Shown here in pieces: positions 2,350-24,334 of a stretch of 27,188 bases of DNA. The stretch is taken from positions 1-27,188 of IMG/VR virus record IMGVR_UViG_3300028410_000054; one strand, 5' to 3'. The stretch's first letter is position 1. Each line of letters starts with the position of its first letter. Made by a program: the position numbers and the translations under genes. Under the pieces are notes generated by a model that was not told the DNA's origin, did not search any database, and was given only the letters and a program-made list of their open reading frames with translations. The DNA comes from a virus.

Positions 2350-3024
2350 ATGAGTTGGTTAGAAAGAGAAGAAACAAAAAGTAAAAACCCAGCGAAGAAA
2401 TTCTTAAGCTGGAAGTCTGAAGAGAAGTGCTTTGCTTACTACGACAAAGACAAAAAGGAAAACATCTTAGTCCCACTTCCTTTTAAATTTGTAATCCTAG
2501 AACATTATCACACCGTAAAAGGATGGAATGATGCAAGCGAAAGCGGTATTTATTCTAACGAAGTGTTTCAAATTGGAAACGAAGAGCTACAAGTTAAAAG
2601 CTTTAAAGGTGGTAAAATTGCAGAGGGTTTATACAAAGATAATAAACCTGCTATTGTTGCCGCTGGTGGACATTATGCCAGAAGTATCTACGCAGTTACC
2701 AATGACCTTGAAATAATTAATATAAGCCTAAAGGGTAGCGGTGTAAGTAGCTATTCGGATTTTATTAACGATATAGGGGATGGCAATTTTGATAAAAATT
2801 GGATAGAAGTAACGGAAGCCAAAGAGCTTAAAAAAGGAAAAGTAAACTATTCTATACCAGTATTTAAAAAATCAACTGCAATCAAAGACAGAAGCAAGCT
2901 AATGCCATTTGCGGATGAGTTACAAAGTTATATGATAGATTATACTGCTGAGGGTTCTGAGGTCGTTAGAGCCAAAGCAAAAGAACCTGAGATAGAAGAA
3001 AAGGAGGACGATTTGCCTTTCTAA
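2350..3024 (+). CDS. Putative phage single-stranded DNA-binding protein
   Basis: The 224-aa protein ends in an acidic tail with a terminal hydrophobic tip, EIEEKEDDLPF (about residues 214-224). This matches the DDLPF-type tail with which bacterial SSB and analogous phage proteins recruit replication and repair partners. The body is rich in beta strands and aromatic residues, consistent with an OB-like fold, though no classic SSB signature can be read by eye. It is the last gene before a terminator and the replication region, which fits the role. Confidence 0.6.
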   Translation: MSWLEREETKSKNPAKKFLSWKSEEKCFAYYDKDKKENILVPLPFKFVILEHYHTVKGWNDASESGIYSNEVFQIGNEELQVKSFKGGKIAEGLYKDNKPAIVAAGGHYARSIYAVTNDLEIINISLKGSGVSSYSDFINDIGDGNFDKNWIEVTEAKELKKGKVNYSIPVFKKSTAIKDRSKLMPFADELQSYMIDYTAEGSEVVRAKAKEPEIEEKEDDLPF

Positions 3025-3042: not shown

Positions 3043-3076
3043 AAAACCCCTTTGCAGAAATGTAAAGGGGTTTTTT
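3043..3076 (+). terminator. Intrinsic terminator after the SSB-like gene
   Basis: AAAACCCCTTT (3043-3053) pairs with AAAGGGGTTTT (3064-3074) around a 10-nt loop, with a run of T through 3076. Confidence 0.9.
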
Positions 3077-3240
3077 ATTTCGGATTATCGCTTCTCTATA
3101 TACCCCCTTTGAGAGAATAATTAAAAAAACAATAGGGGGGGGTCTAAATCCTAAAATAAAATCCGTTTATCCGCACTGTTTTTTATAACACATTGATATT
3201 TAACTACTTACAAAAAACGGATTATTCGGATTAAAATATA
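3077..3240 (+). other. Gene-free repeat region, candidate replication origin
   Basis: No gene is seen between 3025 and 3375. This part is AT-rich and has paired CGGAT half-sites: one at 3081-3085, an inverted pair ATCCG-TTT-ATCCG at 3161-3173, and a direct pair CGGAT-TATT-CGGAT at 3218-3231. A C5 run (3103-3107) faces a G8 run (3135-3142), able to form a GC clamp around an AT-rich loop. CTCT (3094-3097) can also pair with AGAG (3112-3115). Repeats and structure directly before the replication gene suggest an origin or initiator-binding region; this is inference. Confidence 0.4.
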
Positions 3241-3241
3241 G

Positions 3242-3271
3242 TTGTTTATTTAATTAAATGTTATATATTTG
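3242..3271 (+). promoter_or_regulatory. Strong Bacteroidetes-type promoter of the replication operon
   Basis: TTG at 3242-3244, 19 nt, then TATATTTG at 3264-3271, a full match to the TAnnTTTG box. The first stem of the leader RNA begins 8-9 nt downstream, so that RNA would start at or very near the 5' end of the transcript. Confidence 0.8.
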
Positions 3272-3279
3272 TTATTCAA

Positions 3280-3363
3280 AGGTCTGGCAACCTCAAAAAA
3301 TTTATTAGTAGACCCCTTTTTATCTTGGAAAGCCAGACCTCCACTTTAAACAAGGGGTTTTTT
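3280..3363 (+). ncRNA. Structured leader RNA (interleaved stems, terminator-like) before the primase-helicase
   Basis: P1: AGGTCTGGC (3280-3288) with GCCAGACCT (3332-3340), 9 bp perfect. P2: ACCCCTT (3312-3318) with AAGGGGT (3352-3358), followed by TTTTTT (3358-3363). The order P1-left, P2-left, P1-right, P2-right means the stems interleave: both together make an H-type pseudoknot, and P2 alone is an intrinsic terminator with a long loop. The primase ATG follows 12 nt after the T tract. A second RNA with the same layout lies on the minus strand at 24218-24296. It may be an attenuator, a ligand- or protein-sensing leader, or an independent small RNA; I cannot match it to a named family. Confidence 0.6.
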
Positions 3364-3375
3364 AGTTAAAAAAAT

Positions 3376-5733
3376 ATGAAGGACATTCAAATAACAGCTT
3401 TTAAAAGCATAAGAGATACAAAAACTCCTTACTATATTTCATTGGAAAAGTCTATTAAGAGGATTCACTCCGGAGTTTCAAAGGAGCTTATTAATAAGAT
3501 TAGAAATACAGATGACAAAGGGGAAAGGGATTTATTAAAATCACACTTACCTTCCATCTGTTATGGTGGTGTATTTCCAGAACGAAATAAAAACAGCCTT
3601 AAGGAACATAGCGGTTTAATGATAACTGACTTTGATAAAATGCCTACCAAAAGAGATTTTGATAATGTTTGGAAACAACTTACAAATAATCCTCATTGTG
3701 TGTTTCTTTTTTCTAGCCCTTCTAGTGGAGCTAAAGAAACTTATGGTATCAAAGCATTAGTAAGAATTCCAAAGTGTACACATCAAGAGCATACAAAGTA
3801 TTTCAAAGCTTTTAACGATGAATTTAAAATACCGTATTGGGATAATTCAAATTCAGATGTGAGTAGGGTTTGTTATGAAAGTTATGATCCTAATTGCTAT
3901 GTGAATTATAAAGCCAAAGTATTTGAGCCAACTTTAAAAGATGAGGGGTTTGATATAAAGGATCGAGTTCCTTTAATTCCTGTAACCGATGAAGATAAAA
4001 TTATCGATAAAATAATGGCTTTCAATTGGAAAAAAGACTTTATCGAAGGTGAAAGGAATAACTTTATTTTTGATCTTGGTGGTGCGTTTTGCGAGTATGG
4101 TATTAGTGAAGATTATGCAATAGGGTATATTCAAAACAATGTAGCTTATGGAGATTTTAAAGAATCGGAAGTTTACAATACTATTAAATCAGCTTATAAG
4201 AGAAGATCCTTTGGAAGTAAATATTTTGAGGATTACAATAAGCAAAACGCCATTAAGACCAATCTAAAGAAGGGCAAAGCAAAAGTTATAGATCAGTATA
4301 AAATAGAAGAGGAAGTTTATGACAGTCTTAAATATGAAGCTGAGGTTGATAATTTTTGGGATGTAGACGATAAAAATAAAATCAAAGCTAATCCCTTAAA
4401 GTATAAGAGATTCTTAGAGCGTAATGGATTTAAGAAATACTTTCCCGCAGACTCTTTAAAACCCTCTTGGGTATTTATAGAATCAAATAAAGTTAGCGAA
4501 GTATCTCCAGAACGCATAAAGGATTTTGTTTTGGATTACCTAAACGAAAAAAACGAATACGATGTTTGGAATTATTGTGCAAACTATCAAAATTTATTTA
4601 GTGAAAGCTTTTTATTAATGCTCGAAAGTATAGAGTTATCCATGATAAGAGATACAAAAGAAAAGTCTTTTATCGCTTATTCCAATGGGATTTTAGAAAT
4701 AACAAAAGATAAAATTAAACTATTGGATTATATCGATGTGGATGCTTACATCTGGAAGGCACAAATTATAGATAGGGATTTTGAGATTACTAATGATGTA
4801 GAAAATAACTATAAGCTTTTTATATCAAATATTTCTCAGGATAGTTCTGATCCGATTGAGTGTGTTTTGGGTTATCTTTTATCTAGGTATAAGAATAAAA
4901 TGAACAACAAAGCTATAATTTTAAATGATGAGGTCATAAGTGAAAACCCAGAAGGGGGGACTGGTAAAGGTTTATTTGTTCAGGGTATTAGACAAATGAG
5001 GAAGGTATCTATTTTAGATGGTAAAACCTTTGATGATAAGAAAAGCTTTCCATATCAAACTGTTTCACAAGATACAGATATTCTAGTTTTCGACGATGTA
5101 AAAAAGAATTGGGACTTTGAATCTAAATTTAGTTTAGTTACTGAAGGAATGACACTAGAGCGTAAAAATAAAGACGCTATTAAACTATCGATTGAAGAAA
5201 GTCCTAAGATGTTAGTGAGTACAAACTACGCAATTAAGGGCGAAGGAAACAGCCATGACAGGCGAAGGCATGAGATAGAGATAGCACAATACTATGGCAA
5301 GAACTTAACTCCTTATGATGAGTTTGGACATCAACTTTTTGACGATTGGAACCAAGTTACCTTTAATAAGTTCGATAATTATATGGTTGGTTGTTTACAA
5401 AAGTATTTGCAAAAAGGACTAATTCCACAGAAAGCAAAAAACTTAACTATGCGCAAATTCATAGCTGAGACCTGTATGGAATTTCACGAGTTTATGAGCG
5501 ATCAAGATAATTTTCCTCTTAACAAAAGAAATGATAAAGCTATTATCTTCAATTCTTTTGTACAAGAGTATAAGGATTATGAGAAATATTTAACTAGAAA
5601 GCGATTCCATATTTGGGTGAGTAAGTATGCAAGTTTTATTAAAGCAGACTTCGACTCAGGGAATACCAACGGTCTTAAATGGTTTGAGATTAACAACGGG
5701 GGAGAAACCAAAAACGAAGAAGTTCCATTTTAA
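3376..5733 (+). CDS. Primase-helicase fusion (BT4734/VirE-type N-terminus, SF3 helicase)
   Basis: A 785-aa replication protein. The N-terminal third resembles the BT4734/VirE_N primase-like domain: acidic pair in MITDFDKMP (D85, D87) and the FLFSSPSSGAKETYGIK stretch. A PriCT-like helical segment (GERNNFIFDLGGAFCEYGIS) follows at about 220-280. The C-terminal half is an AAA+/superfamily 3 helicase: Walker A NPEGGTGKG (524-532, K531), Walker B DILVFDDV (D573, D574) and motif C MLVSTNY (N617). This is the arrangement of phage primase-helicases that prime and unwind at the fork. It is the first gene after the structured leader and is followed 13 nt later by an SF2 helicase gene. Confidence 0.85.
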   Translation: MKDIQITAFKSIRDTKTPYYISLEKSIKRIHSGVSKELINKIRNTDDKGERDLLKSHLPSICYGGVFPERNKNSLKEHSGLMITDFDKMPTKRDFDNVWKQLTNNPHCVFLFSSPSSGAKETYGIKALVRIPKCTHQEHTKYFKAFNDEFKIPYWDNSNSDVSRVCYESYDPNCYVNYKAKVFEPTLKDEGFDIKDRVPLIPVTDEDKIIDKIMAFNWKKDFIEGERNNFIFDLGGAFCEYGISEDYAIGYIQNNVAYGDFKESEVYNTIKSAYKRRSFGSKYFEDYNKQNAIKTNLKKGKAKVIDQYKIEEEVYDSLKYEAEVDNFWDVDDKNKIKANPLKYKRFLERNGFKKYFPADSLKPSWVFIESNKVSEVSPERIKDFVLDYLNEKNEYDVWNYCANYQNLFSESFLLMLESIELSMIRDTKEKSFIAYSNGILEITKDKIKLLDYIDVDAYIWKAQIIDRDFEITNDVENNYKLFISNISQDSSDPIECVLGYLLSRYKNKMNNKAIILNDEVISENPEGGTGKGLFVQGIRQMRKVSILDGKTFDDKKSFPYQTVSQDTDILVFDDVKKNWDFESKFSLVTEGMTLERKNKDAIKLSIEESPKMLVSTNYAIKGEGNSHDRRRHEIEIAQYYGKNLTPYDEFGHQLFDDWNQVTFNKFDNYMVGCLQKYLQKGLIPQKAKNLTMRKFIAETCMEFHEFMSDQDNFPLNKRNDKAIIFNSFVQEYKDYEKYLTRKRFHIWVSKYASFIKADFDSGNTNGLKWFEINNGGETKNEEVPF

Positions 5734-12578: not shown

Positions 12579-12986
12579 ATGCACCCAACAAGAATATTTA
12601 AAAAGCCTGAAGACCTAGAGAAAGCTTGGAGGGCATACAAAGAAGACCTAAAAGAAAAAGCTAAAGCATGGGTAAAGGTTCAATACGTAGGAAAAGACGG
12701 AGACAAGAAACAAGACTCACCTAAACTACCATTAACCTATGAGGGTTTTAAACGCTTCTGCTGGGATGAAAACATAGGAACGGTTCAGCATTACTTTGAG
12801 AACACAGAGAAGATGTACGACGACTTCTGTGAGGTCTGCACGCGCATTAAGAACGAAATAAGAGAAGACCAAATCACAGGCGGTATATTATCATTCTACA
12901 ATCCAAGCATTACTCAGCGCTTAAATAACCTAGTCGAGAAATCAGAAGTTAAGATTGAAGACGTAGACGTTAACTTTGAAGATTAA
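12579..12986 (+). CDS. Terminase small subunit
   Basis: The 135-aa protein carries the pattern of gp3-like DNA-packaging proteins: LPLTYEGFKRFCWDENIGTV (about 50-70, DNA-recognition helices), a central YFENTEKMYDDF helix, and the C-terminal IREDQITGGILSFYNPSITQ ending in RLNNLVEK. It recognises the packaging signal in concatemeric DNA and hands it to the large subunit. It overlaps the large-subunit gene by 11 nt and follows the hairpin at 12498-12561. Confidence 0.85.
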   Translation: MHPTRIFKKPEDLEKAWRAYKEDLKEKAKAWVKVQYVGKDGDKKQDSPKLPLTYEGFKRFCWDENIGTVQHYFENTEKMYDDFCEVCTRIKNEIREDQITGGILSFYNPSITQRLNNLVEKSEVKIEDVDVNFED

Positions 12987-14238
12987 TGTAAAAAGACCAA
13001 AACTAACAAGCTACCAAAAGGATTTCCTTTACAATGGTGCAAGGTTTACGTTTACAGAAGCCTCAACAAAAGCAGGTAAAACCTTTGCCCATATTTGGTG
13101 GATATACGAAAGAGCGCACGAGCCTTGGAATAAAACAGGATATAATCATTGGTGGGTAGCACCTGTATACTCACAGGCTAAGATAGCATTTAACAGGCTT
13201 AGAATTAAACTAGGTCGCACCGGCTATTATAAAATTAACGAATCAAGTCTAACAATTACATGCCCTAATGGTGCTGTTATTTGCTTTAAGTCTGCAGACA
13301 AATACGATAACCTATTTGGTGAAGATGTATACTCAGTTGTATTTGACGAAGCACCTAGGGCAAAGGTAGAAGCCTTCTACGCATTACGTTCTACCGTAAC
13401 CTCAACTAAGGGAGTAATGAAGATGATAGGCAACTTTGGAGGTATCGCCAACTGGATGCACCAAATAAAAGAAAAGGCAAAGACTGACGACCAATACGCA
13501 TATTATAAGATAACAGCTTGGGATGCAGTTAAGGAGGGCATACTAGACGAAGCTGAGATACTACAAGCACAAAAAGACCTACCTACTAAGATATTCCAAC
13601 AACTCTACCTAGCAGAAGAAACAGAAAGCGAAGACCAGCTTATCAGTTTTGACACTATGAAGTCAATGTTTACTAACGACTTTGTCAAGGATGGGACTAA
13701 ATACATTACTGCTGATATTGCCTTACATGGTTCGGATAAGTTTGTTGTATTTGTTTGGTCAGGTTGGAAAATAATCGACTGCATTATAACAGCCAAATGT
13801 GAAGCCCCAGAAGTAGAGAAGTTACTAAAGGAAACAGCTACAAAGTACGGAGTACAACGCAATAACATCACATACGATGCAGATGGTCTAGGATCATTCT
13901 TAAGAGGTTACTTACAAGGAGCGAGACCATTTAACAACGGAGGTACACCAATAGGCAAAACAAACTATAAGAACCTTAAAAGCCAATGCGGTTATGAGTT
14001 TGCAAAGCATTGCAGAATTGAAGGTATTAAAATAGATTGTAAGATAGACAAGGGAGAACTTTACAAAGAATTAGAATGCCTAAAGTCTTATGCACTAGAC
14101 AAAGAGGGAAAGATACAACTGATGCCAAAGGAGAAGATAAAAGAAATTATAGGGCATTCGCCTGACTTGCTAGATGCCATCACTATGAGGATGATGTTTA
14201 ATTTAGAACCGAACAAAGGAAAGTATTATGTATATTAG
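12976..14238 (+). CDS. Terminase large subunit
   Basis: A 420-aa packaging ATPase/nuclease. Walker A-like STKAGKT (30-36), Walker B VVFDEA (D124, E125), then the RNase H-like nuclease part with YITADIALHGSDKF, ITYDADGLG and SPDLLDAIT giving the acidic metal ligands. The start is TTG at 12976 (MKINVKRPKLTS), because no in-frame ATG lies before the Walker A motif; the 11-nt overlap with the small-subunit gene implies coupling. Length is typical of the family. Confidence 0.9.
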   Translation: MKINVKRPKLTSYQKDFLYNGARFTFTEASTKAGKTFAHIWWIYERAHEPWNKTGYNHWWVAPVYSQAKIAFNRLRIKLGRTGYYKINESSLTITCPNGAVICFKSADKYDNLFGEDVYSVVFDEAPRAKVEAFYALRSTVTSTKGVMKMIGNFGGIANWMHQIKEKAKTDDQYAYYKITAWDAVKEGILDEAEILQAQKDLPTKIFQQLYLAEETESEDQLISFDTMKSMFTNDFVKDGTKYITADIALHGSDKFVVFVWSGWKIIDCIITAKCEAPEVEKLLKETATKYGVQRNNITYDADGLGSFLRGYLQGARPFNNGGTPIGKTNYKNLKSQCGYEFAKHCRIEGIKIDCKIDKGELYKELECLKSYALDKEGKIQLMPKEKIKEIIGHSPDLLDAITMRMMFNLEPNKGKYYVY

Positions 14239-22767: not shown

Positions 22768-23358
22768 TTAGAGCCTTGCGTGTATCTCTCTTATCTTATC
22801 TGGGTTGGGGTGGTGGTTCAATACTCTTTTTAAGTTAGTAGGGTTCACGGATCGGTTTCCTTTTGCTAGGTTATCAGCCGCAGTTAAGAGTTGTAAATTA
22901 CTATAATGATTTAGTAGAAGAGTTTCTTCTATTGTTTTTGATAATGACAAAGGAACAACATGATCTAAATGTAAATCAGTAAATCCGTAAGTATGTCCAT
23001 TACTAGCAATACCGTTAAGCCAATCTAAAAGATAATTATAATCACACTTTAAAATATGTATAATTTTTGCATTTTTTGGATATCCTTTTCTTTTTATGGA
23101 ATTATAAATCAAACCATCTACACACAAAGTTAATTTTTTAACAGGGTTTATTTTATTAAGTTTAAATTTATTTTTTTGTTTTAATATTTTATTTTGAATC
23201 ATTTGTTTTTTTAAAAACAACATTGACTCTTCAAAAAATTTATCACTTTCTTTTTTACAAGTTTCACACATAAATAGGTTATCATATTCAATAATATTGT
23301 GTTTATTAAATTCATCTATACTTTTTAACTTTTGACACTTAACACATTTCTTTTCCAT
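22768..23358 (-). CDS. HNH endonuclease (paralog 2)
   Basis: A 196-aa protein. The N-terminal zinc module is CVKC (C5, C8) with CETC (C31, C34). The C-terminal HNH core is LHLDHVVPLSL (D132, H133) followed by NHYSNLQLLTAADNLAKGNR (N154, N163). The last ~80 residues are highly similar to the neighbouring HNH gene (shared NGIASNGHTYG, LLNHYSN). HNH proteins of this free-standing type nick or cut DNA, as homing-type mobile genes or packaging partners. It lies 14 nt after the first HNH gene, in the same transcript. Confidence 0.85.
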   Translation of the reverse strand: MEKKCVKCQKLKSIDEFNKHNIIEYDNLFMCETCKKESDKFFEESMLFLKKQMIQNKILKQKNKFKLNKINPVKKLTLCVDGLIYNSIKRKGYPKNAKIIHILKCDYNYLLDWLNGIASNGHTYGFTDLHLDHVVPLSLSKTIEETLLLNHYSNLQLLTAADNLAKGNRSVNPTNLKRVLNHHPNPDKIREIHARL

Positions 23359-23372
23359 AGTTTCTAGTTTAT

Positions 23373-24203
23373 TTATAATCTTGAATATATTTCTTTTATT
23401 TTGTTAGGTTCTGGATGGTGTTCTAGTACTCTTTTTAAGTTAATAGGGTTTACGTAGCGGTTGCTTTTTGCTAGGTTTTCATCAGCACTTAGTAATTGAT
23501 AGTTAGAGTAATGATTTAACAAGATTACTTCATCTTCTGTTTCTGCTAATGATATTGGAATAACATGATCTAAGTGTAATTCTCCTATGCCGTAGGTATG
23601 GCCGTTACTTGCGATACCGTTAATCCATTTCATAAAAAAATTAAATTCACATTTTAATATATTGTAAGTTTTAGTTGTTTTGTCGTAACTTTTGGATTTT
23701 AAAGATATATATATAAGATTTGAAACATTACAACTTAACTTGTATAAAGGATTTGTTTGTTTTTTTATAGTTTTGTATAAGTTCGTTCTTTTCTTGTTTT
23801 TTATTTTCCATTCTTTTCTTTGTTTATCTATTTTTAATTTGTTTTTTTCATAATATTCCTTTGTTTGTTCTTTTATTTTCTCTTTATTTTTAAAATTATA
23901 TTCTTTTCTCTTTTCTTTAATATTTTCCTCATTGTTCAATCTATATTTTTTATTATATTCTTTTCTTTTTTCTTTATTTTTTTCATTGTAGAGTTTCATA
24001 CCTTTAATTAATCTTTGTTTATTTTTTTCATAACGCTCTTTTGAATCTTGTTTAATTTTTACTTTATTTTTATTATATTTTATTTTTTTGTATTCTTTCA
24101 AACAAATCTTACAAAAGGAATGTTTACCATTTCTCCCGTCTTTTCTATTACCAAACTCATCAAAATCTTTAACCTCTTTACACTTAGTACATTTCTTTTC
24201 CAT
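23373..24203 (-). CDS. HNH endonuclease (paralog 1, with Lys-rich coiled region)
   Basis: A 276-aa protein with the same N-terminal zinc module (C5, C8, C31, C34) and C-terminal HNH core (LHLDHVIPISL, D212/H213, then NHYSNYQLL and ENLAKSNR). Between them sits a Lys/Glu/Asn-rich repeat region with motifs such as EKRKEYN and KNKEKIKE, probably a flexible or coiled DNA-contacting linker. It is the first gene of a minus-strand pair with its own promoter (24306-24334) and structured leader RNA, consistent with a mobile nuclease unit inserted in a plus-strand structural region. Confidence 0.85.
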   Translation of the reverse strand: MEKKCTKCKEVKDFDEFGNRKDGRNGKHSFCKICLKEYKKIKYNKNKVKIKQDSKERYEKNKQRLIKGMKLYNEKNKEKRKEYNKKYRLNNEENIKEKRKEYNFKNKEKIKEQTKEYYEKNKLKIDKQRKEWKIKNKKRTNLYKTIKKQTNPLYKLSCNVSNLIYISLKSKSYDKTTKTYNILKCEFNFFMKWINGIASNGHTYGIGELHLDHVIPISLAETEDEVILLNHYSNYQLLSADENLAKSNRYVNPINLKRVLEHHPEPNKIKEIYSRL

Positions 24204-24217
24204 AATATAATTAAATT

Positions 24218-24296
24218 AAAAAACCCTATTCAAAATCAGGGCTCGACAACCGATTAAGAATAGGGTTTAACTAATATTTTATTAAGGTGTCGAGCC
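24218..24296 (-). ncRNA. Structured leader RNA (interleaved stems, terminator-like) before the HNH genes
   Basis: On the minus strand: P1 GGCTCGACA (24296-24288) pairs with TGTCGAGCC (24248-24240), 9 bp. P2 AAACCCTATTC (24268-24258) pairs with GAATAGGGTTT (24231-24221), 11 bp, and ends in six T (24223-24218), with the HNH ATG 14 nt later. Stem order P1-P2-P1'-P2' is the same as at 3280-3363, and loop 1 is alike in both (CCTYAA ... TATTAGT) although the stems differ. P2 alone is a terminator; P1 and P2 together form a pseudoknot. Confidence 0.65.
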
Positions 24297-24305
24297 TTTA
24301 GATTG

Positions 24306-24334
24306 CTAATATAATACTTTTATATTCTAATCAA
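24306..24334 (-). promoter_or_regulatory. Promoter of the HNH pair (minus strand)
   Basis: Minus strand TTG (24334-24332), 18-nt spacer, TATATTAG (24313-24306), one mismatch to TAnnTTTG. The leader RNA begins 9 nt downstream, the same distance as in the plus-strand copy. Confidence 0.65.

Follow-up and report, generated by a model that had tools for sequence, protein, structure and literature searches.

Among known systems, the closest in kind to the locus described here are the PeSLs (promoter early stem-loops) of T4-like phages, elements that were reportedly studied in Arbiol 2010 and Comeau 2014. According to papers that cite this work, PeSLs consist of a host-type promoter and a stem-loop, are repeated before unrelated genes and are tied to gene shuffling, and a title cited there calls them composite promoter-terminator motifs (PMC4503421, PMC3950731). 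Another kind of dispersed phage motif are the ESAS of cluster K mycobacteriophages, inverted-repeat motifs of unknown function that lie just upstream of many start codons and share a conserved 17-bp sequence consensus (PMC3203893). The element presented here is PeSL-like in layout, since it also comprises a promoter followed by a stem-loop and is reused before many unrelated genes. It differs in its Bacteroidota hosts, in its promoter of the TAnnTTTG type, in the few copies per phage and in a loop that pairs, with covariation, either with the 5' end of the RNA or with the loop of a 5' hairpin (P0), whereas the citing passages do not mention loop pairing in PeSLs. As it has neither the E. coli-type early promoter of a T4-like myovirus nor a simple stem-loop, it does not belong to the PeSLs as these passages portray them. 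With the ESAS it shares dispersal and inverted repeats close before start codons; however, it possesses a promoter and a T-tract and retains its shape without its sequence. No conserved 17-bp repeat is present and the stem sequences are almost completely different between elements, which separates it from the ESAS as well. RNAI and RNAII of ColE1, which control replication, form loop-loop helices via fully paired 7-nt loops, and these loops diversify between relatives. By analogy, the element may be likened to this pair, as it also pairs loops, targets replication genes and has loops that diverge between relatives, but its two loops reside in one RNA, pair in cis and are followed by a U-tract before the start codon; an antisense partner was not found. 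The leader of T4 gene 32 contains an autoregulatory pseudoknot that serves as translational operator at a single gene. The present element is likewise a phage pseudoknot in the leader of replication genes, yet it is linked to a promoter, terminator-like and used before many gene families.

The analysed stretch (the window; 27,188 nt, positions 1 to 27,188 of the IMG/VR virus record IMGVR_UViG_3300028410_000054) encodes a terminase and a BT4734-type primase and, together with its promoters, is of the Bacteroidota phage type. Two copies of the element were found (Table 1). An earlier note, made from the letters of this DNA, had described the minus-strand copy at 24313-24218 as TTG-N18-box, 9 nt, P1, P2, six T and, 14 nt later, an ATG, and had regarded it as a second instance of an architecture at 3280-3363. 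Direct reading of both copies confirms this layout as well as the agreement in order and spacing. In copy 2, 9 nt lie between the TATATTAG box and the 5' arm of P1, P1 and P2 comprise 9 and 11 bp, respectively, and the ATG (24203) follows 14 nt past the six-T tract, while in copy 1 it follows 12 nt past the T6 tract.

Table 1. Coordinates of the two element copies and their downstream genes in the window.
Feature	Positions	Strand	Details	Basis
Copy 1, promoter	3242..3271	+	TTG (3242-3244), 19-nt spacer, TATATTTG (3264-3271)	sequence
Copy 1, P1 5' arm AGGTCTGGC	3280..3288	+	pairs with 3332-3340	
Copy 1, P2 5' arm AGACCCCTT	3310..3318	+	pairs with 3352-3360	
Copy 1, P1 3' arm GCCAGACCT	3332..3340	+	pairs with 3280-3288	
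Copy 1, P2 3' arm AAGGGGTTT and T6	3352..3363	+		sequence
Replication primase/helicase gene	3376..5733	+	785 aa; directly downstream of copy 1	
Copy 2, promoter, Bacteroidetes-type	24306..24334	-	TTG (24334-24332), 18-nt spacer, TATATTAG (24313-24306)	sequence
Copy 2, P0 hairpin	24284..24298	-	AAGG [CTCGACA] CCTT; weak energy	predicted fold of isolated 5' part
Copy 2, P1 5' arm GGCTCGACA	24288..24296	-	partner 24248-24240	double compensatory changes in 5/9 P1 pairs (A2)
Copy 2, P2 5' arm AAACCCTATTC	24258..24268	-	within P1 loop	sequence and A2 alignment
Copy 2, P3	24234..24255	-	AATCGG (24255-24250) / CTGATT (24239-24234)	nested minimum-energy fold; also in relatives
Copy 2, P1 3' arm TGTCGAGCC	24240..24248	-	within P2/P3 hairpin loop	sequence and A2 alignment
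Copy 2, P2 3' arm GAATAGGGTTT	24221..24231	-	pairs with 24268-24258	sequence and A2 alignment
Copy 2, T6 tract	24218..24223	-	U-tract of terminator-like hairpin	sequence; T-rich tail also in relatives
HNH/endonuclease VII-like gene	23373..24203	-	276 aa; directly downstream of copy 2	
Second HNH-like gene	22768..23358	-	196 aa; C-terminal sequence common to both HNH-like genes	ORF listing

The two copies precede unrelated genes. The 785-aa product behind copy 1 matches PF08800 (E 2.2e-11), PF08708 (E 3.4e-8) and the DNA primase/helicase family PHROG 18375. The 276-aa product behind copy 2 matches PHROG 1035 (endonuclease VII; E 2e-15) and PHROG 2255 (HNH; 2.4e-5), and a Pfam search with this protein gave no match. 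The 196-aa gene is homologous to the 276-aa gene, follows 14 nt behind it and has no element of its own. This tandem pair with its own promoter-leader sits amid plus-strand virion genes, reminiscent of a moron-like insertion. In copy 1, the 3' arm of P2 with its tail, AAGGGGTTTTTTAGTT, agrees at 15 of 16 positions with the 3' half of a plain terminator-like hairpin located at 3043-3080.

The surroundings of the primase gene display two further features. In 49 of 60 relatives, the 500 nt upstream of the primase include a stretch of six or more G or C, compared with 0.015 per 500 nt elsewhere; in the window it is located at 3135-3142, and in the relatives (L003-L082) it is often close to TGTGTWS repeats. 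Possibly, it is part of a replication origin. In addition, the window ORF preceding the primase gene (2350-3024) ends in EEKEDDLPF and the primase itself in NEEVPF, while the commonest ends among the primases of the relatives are IAF, IPF, IDF, IYF, VPF and similar. Such termini recall the acidic tip at the C-terminus of single-strand binding proteins.

Three structural traits went unmentioned in the earlier note, i.e. the interleaving of the stems, P0 and P3. In both window copies, the arms are arranged in the order P1 5', P2 5', P1 3' and P2 3'. Hence, the 3' strand of P1 resides in the loop of the P2/P3 hairpin, and this loop is base-paired to the very start of the RNA. In the predicted fold of copy 2, P3 closes the terminator-hairpin loop that contains the 3' arm of P1. 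Nested folding yields only the P2 hairpin with the inner P3 and misses P1, because P1 and P2 interleave. The linker L1 always measured at least 14 nt although the search descriptor allowed 9, a minimum in keeping with the length that an interleaved fold would need. Overall, the interlocked structure of the element is considered near-certain. In one subtype (L006, L013, L017, L022, L015 and L235, the latter being FCL-2 37483), an extra small hairpin is present in L1 between P0 and P2, e.g. AAGGTTTTTTAACCT.

The 5' hairpin P0 is more variable. It is usual where P1 starts at least 7 nt after the -7 box; at distances of 1-5 nt it is weak or lacking. P0-like stems were found in 53 of 77 real elements and in 27 of 77 after flanks had been swapped between elements. 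P0 is firm only in the alignment termed A1 (see below) and suggestive elsewhere; for the window copies, weak stems of 4 bp are predicted, in copy 2 between AAGG (24298-24295) and CCTT (24287-24284) with most of the 5' arm of P1 as loop, and possibly in copy 1 between AGGT (3280-3283) and ACCT (3290-3293). Where the 5' partner of P1 is the P0 loop, P1 can form a loop-loop kissing helix. Two complementary hairpin loops, that of P0 and that of P2/P3, indeed occur in all 19 sequences of A1 (19/19), with compensatory changes, and kissing loops are absent in the class of elements that lacks P0.

The stems are supported by covariation within subgroups. A1 comprises 19 sequences (NUMOD4-HNH leaders and others) that were picked by a pattern over the linker, two C of P2 and L2 only, so that the other pairings in this alignment are unselected. 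It contains P0 as a 4-bp hairpin whose loop is the 5' arm of P1; by pairing over 7 bp with the P2/P3 hairpin loop, this arm forms P1. In A1, pairing is intact in 99.3% of cells, and double changes affect 11 of the 22 pairs, versus 0-2 pairs when the partners are slid by 1-3 columns; the covariation score amounts to 0.328 (slid, at most 0.028). The covarying pairs are distributed over P0 (3/4), P1 (3/7) and P2 (5/7). For A2, the window's own subgroup, double changes were seen in 10 of 20 pairs, including five of nine in P1, with a score of 0.475 versus at most 0.116 when slid. In A3, the ACCGCCAA subgroup, P1 is invariant and P2 variable; on its own, this alignment would say little about P1. 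Non-Watson-Crick paired cells across A1, A2 and A3 comprise 46 G-U and 5 A-C, which fits an RNA transcribed from the strand of the promoter. The covariation-like pattern that the earlier note had seen in two copies is borne out by the alignments, and the refutation proposed there, a P1 that is not conserved next to a bidirectional terminator at P2, does not apply: P1 covaries and the T-tract is one-sided, which rules out a simple bidirectional terminator. Conservation of CCTYAA...TATTAGT in loop 1, likewise put forward there, holds for the subgroup of the window and is lost across the whole set. Two side observations concern individual sequences. A P1 core, CCGCCAA/TTGGCGG, is common to the ACCGCCAA subgroup (L011-L172) and to L016 and L176, which are otherwise different elements before unrelated genes, and L194 carries at 12908-12994 an A1-type element in which one P0 pair is disrupted and behind which no ORF was found; this copy may be decaying after the loss of its gene.

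The pattern extends far beyond the two window copies. Using a descriptor anchored at the T-tract, 44 elements with scores of at least 50 were detected in ~1.1 Mb of related phage DNA, whereas dinucleotide-shuffled and reversed sequence gave 0.5 and 6, respectively. A second scan was anchored solely at the promoter box, with neither T-tract nor ORF as criterion, and retrieved 58 distinct elements scoring at least 44 versus 3 in shuffled downstream sequence. The TAnnTTTG/TAnnTTAG box precedes all of these promoter-anchored relatives, in most cases with TTG 15-23 nt upstream, and for 56 of the 58 strong elements an ORF begins no more than 60 nt downstream, the usual distance from P2 being 9-22 nt. 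The strict pattern CCT[CT]A..TTAGT matched, among the true elements of the first 118 loci, the window copies alone; homologs were therefore sought via genes and shape. Among relatives of the primase, drawn from viral contigs, most have the architecture at the matching site with unrelated stem sequences. L003 and L004, whose primase is 94% identical to that of the window, exhibit a compensatory C-G to G-C change within P1. In L005 (primase 81% identical), the element ahead of the primase, at position 564, is of the HNH-linked kind (GGCTAGACA, with TTAATCGGT as L2 and CTGATTAT as L3), which suggests that the element acts as an exchangeable module.

Other searches delimit this distribution. A covariance model of the NUMOD4-HNH subgroup gave no hits in 251 whole genomes from the family of a Flavobacteriaceae MAG, which is weak evidence given strict filters and no positive-control genome, and a scan of genome contigs for the primase returned two MAG contigs only. 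The promoter-anchored scan yielded nothing convincing in the first 50 kb each of Cellulophaga phage phi38:1, crAss001 and Maribacter phage Panino or in Polaribacter phage Leef_1. With Rfam 15, no hit above the gathering score was obtained in the window and none at the elements of five relatives at E values up to 1. The elements gave no Rfam riboswitch match, with pseudoknots of the preQ1 and SAM-II types, which have a conserved ligand-binding core, considered, and their unpaired parts have only an A/U-rich linker in common across subgroups. The suggestion of an undescribed phage-encoded element thus apparently stands, as the literature search also found no description, although subscription journals were outside its scope and an earlier description is possible.

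About 30 clusters of downstream ORFs follow the elements, some of them perhaps by chance, which together with the three alignments substantiates the idea of one RNA architecture ahead of unrelated genes. Three unrelated primase/helicase types are served, i.e. BT4734/PriCT primases, a PrimPol-DUF3987 protein and a DUF5906 helicase-type protein, along with HNH/endonuclease VII-like, NUMOD4-HNH, GIY-YIG-NUMOD3, YopX and many small proteins. Upstream of the primase alone, 17 different P1 sequences occur, and each phage record holds one to four copies. Cultured carriers include Flavobacterium phage elemoB_14-3B, with elements before an HNH gene and before the replication operon, elemoE_10-3D, in which the element at the place matching that of elemoB has an identical promoter and different stems, and FCL-2, with an element before gp54.

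The 3' part of the element resembles a terminator. Promoter-anchored elements contain a median of seven T in the ten positions after P2, versus 2-3.5 in shuffled matches, and A1 shows five invariant T after the hairpin, though T was not used in its selection. At most positions from -18 to -7, the element leaders have 55-79% T, whereas the start regions of the remaining genes in these phages are rich in A (54-58% A at -14 to -11). Like an attenuator leader, the element places a hairpin and an immediately adjoining U-tract between promoter and start codon. A mutually exclusive antiterminator pairing is absent: the bases of P1 and P2 are separate in all elements shown, which sets P1 apart from classical antiterminators, and it might promote termination, hamper it or leave it unchanged. 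Termination may be weak where the tail is short or interrupted, as in some elements (TTTTAACTTTTT; TTTTTAC).

Taken together, the element is best read, with a probability of roughly 0.55, as a modular promoter and attenuator-leader cassette of Flavobacteriia-type phages. As far as sequences permit such a proposal, the P2 hairpin and its U-tract would act as a transcription attenuator close to the promoter and restrain the expression of replication and homing-endonuclease genes, and P1 may set the frequency at which the polymerase reads through. Transcription would start a few nt after the TAnnTTTG/TAnnTTAG box, with the RNA beginning at or just before P0/P1, and the leader would fold into the 5' hairpin P0, which one class lacks, and a second hairpin of the terminator type, formed by P2 and the inner P3, with a U-tract that runs almost up to the start codon. 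The loop of this second hairpin may then pair with the P0 loop or with the free 5' end to form P1. RNA polymerase covers approximately the last 14 nt of its RNA. With ~8 nt in L3 and 7-11 nt in the P2 arm, the P1 3' strand would be leaving the polymerase about when the U-tract is reached, and P1 would thus form at the termination decision. Any trans-acting factor would presumably read the fold or its junctions, since the sequence changes freely while the fold stays. A precedent is Rop, which reads the fold of the ColE1 kissing RNAs.

P2 lies so close to the start codon that a role in translation or mRNA stability would be compatible as well. An insulating or protective 5' UTR, in which the fold shields the 5' end from decay and keeps the AU-rich start region unpaired for context-independent expression of a mobile gene, the T-tract being incidental, is a less probable alternative. 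P2 ends 9-22 nt before the ATG and so adjoins the initiation region, the 5' end is hidden by P1/P0, and a shape kept without sequence fits a mechanical role; moreover, initiation in Bacteroidia relies on upstream adenines and low structure (PMC9976891). Against this, the start region is unusually T-rich rather than A-rich in comparison with other genes of the same phages, and a pure insulator has no need of an invariant T5 after a clean hairpin base. Alternatively, termination at P2 might release a structured RNA of 80-95 nt that acts in trans, e.g. by loop-loop pairing with other leader copies. ColE1 RNAI/RNAII and the P4-type immunity RNAs of phages provide precedents for such copy-number or immunity-type control. 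In favour of this, promoter, compact fold and terminator are all parts of the unit itself, and its loops of 7-9 nt are self-complementary within one RNA. However, cis pairing should outcompete trans pairing; the consistent junction to a start codon 9-22 nt further on is leader-like, and the rarity of antisense promoters over or near the leaders (1/78 elements) leaves antisense control unsupported and a separate antagonist RNA not evident. A small-RNA source thus appears rather improbable, even if folds that are kept while loops are replaced (elemoB versus elemoE; 17 P1 versions before one gene) are what specificity groups would produce. Conceivably, though with similarly low likelihood, the kissing loops of a phage-wide family of cis leaders are exchangeable specificity tags, and the terminated leader from one copy senses and tunes copies with matching loops in a dosage or immunity control of replication and homing genes; divergence of the loops between sister phages would then give rise to new specificity groups.

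HK022 put sites directly follow a promoter and head early-type genes. The element occupies the same position, and a put-like RNA would modify the polymerase to ignore later terminators; an ending in a terminator-like tail of its own, the lack of conserved primary sequence and downstream units that include single genes render this function very improbable. Hardly tenable is a DNA-level element (protein-binding inverted repeats, a recombination site or the remnant of a homing site) or mere chance. Inverted repeats and a frequent link to homing endonucleases would be compatible with the former, but the ratio of 46 G-U to 5 A-C and the covariation of interleaved helices point to RNA, and neither option agrees with the fixed order of promoter, element and ATG or with 58 real versus 3 shuffled elements.

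Whichever function applies, the cultured Flavobacterium phages elemoB, elemoE and FCL-2 make the element directly testable, and it could serve as a portable expression part for Bacteroidota, in which Shine-Dalgarno sequences are not generally used. Searches of the Rfam type are poorly suited to such an element, because its sequence turns over while the interlocked shape persists. A promoter, a terminator and a loop-loop helix are joined here in one movable part that recurs before unrelated primases and endonucleases. Judged from sequence comparison, it appears to represent an undescribed RNA family that would set the expression of replication and homing-endonuclease genes in many environmental phages.
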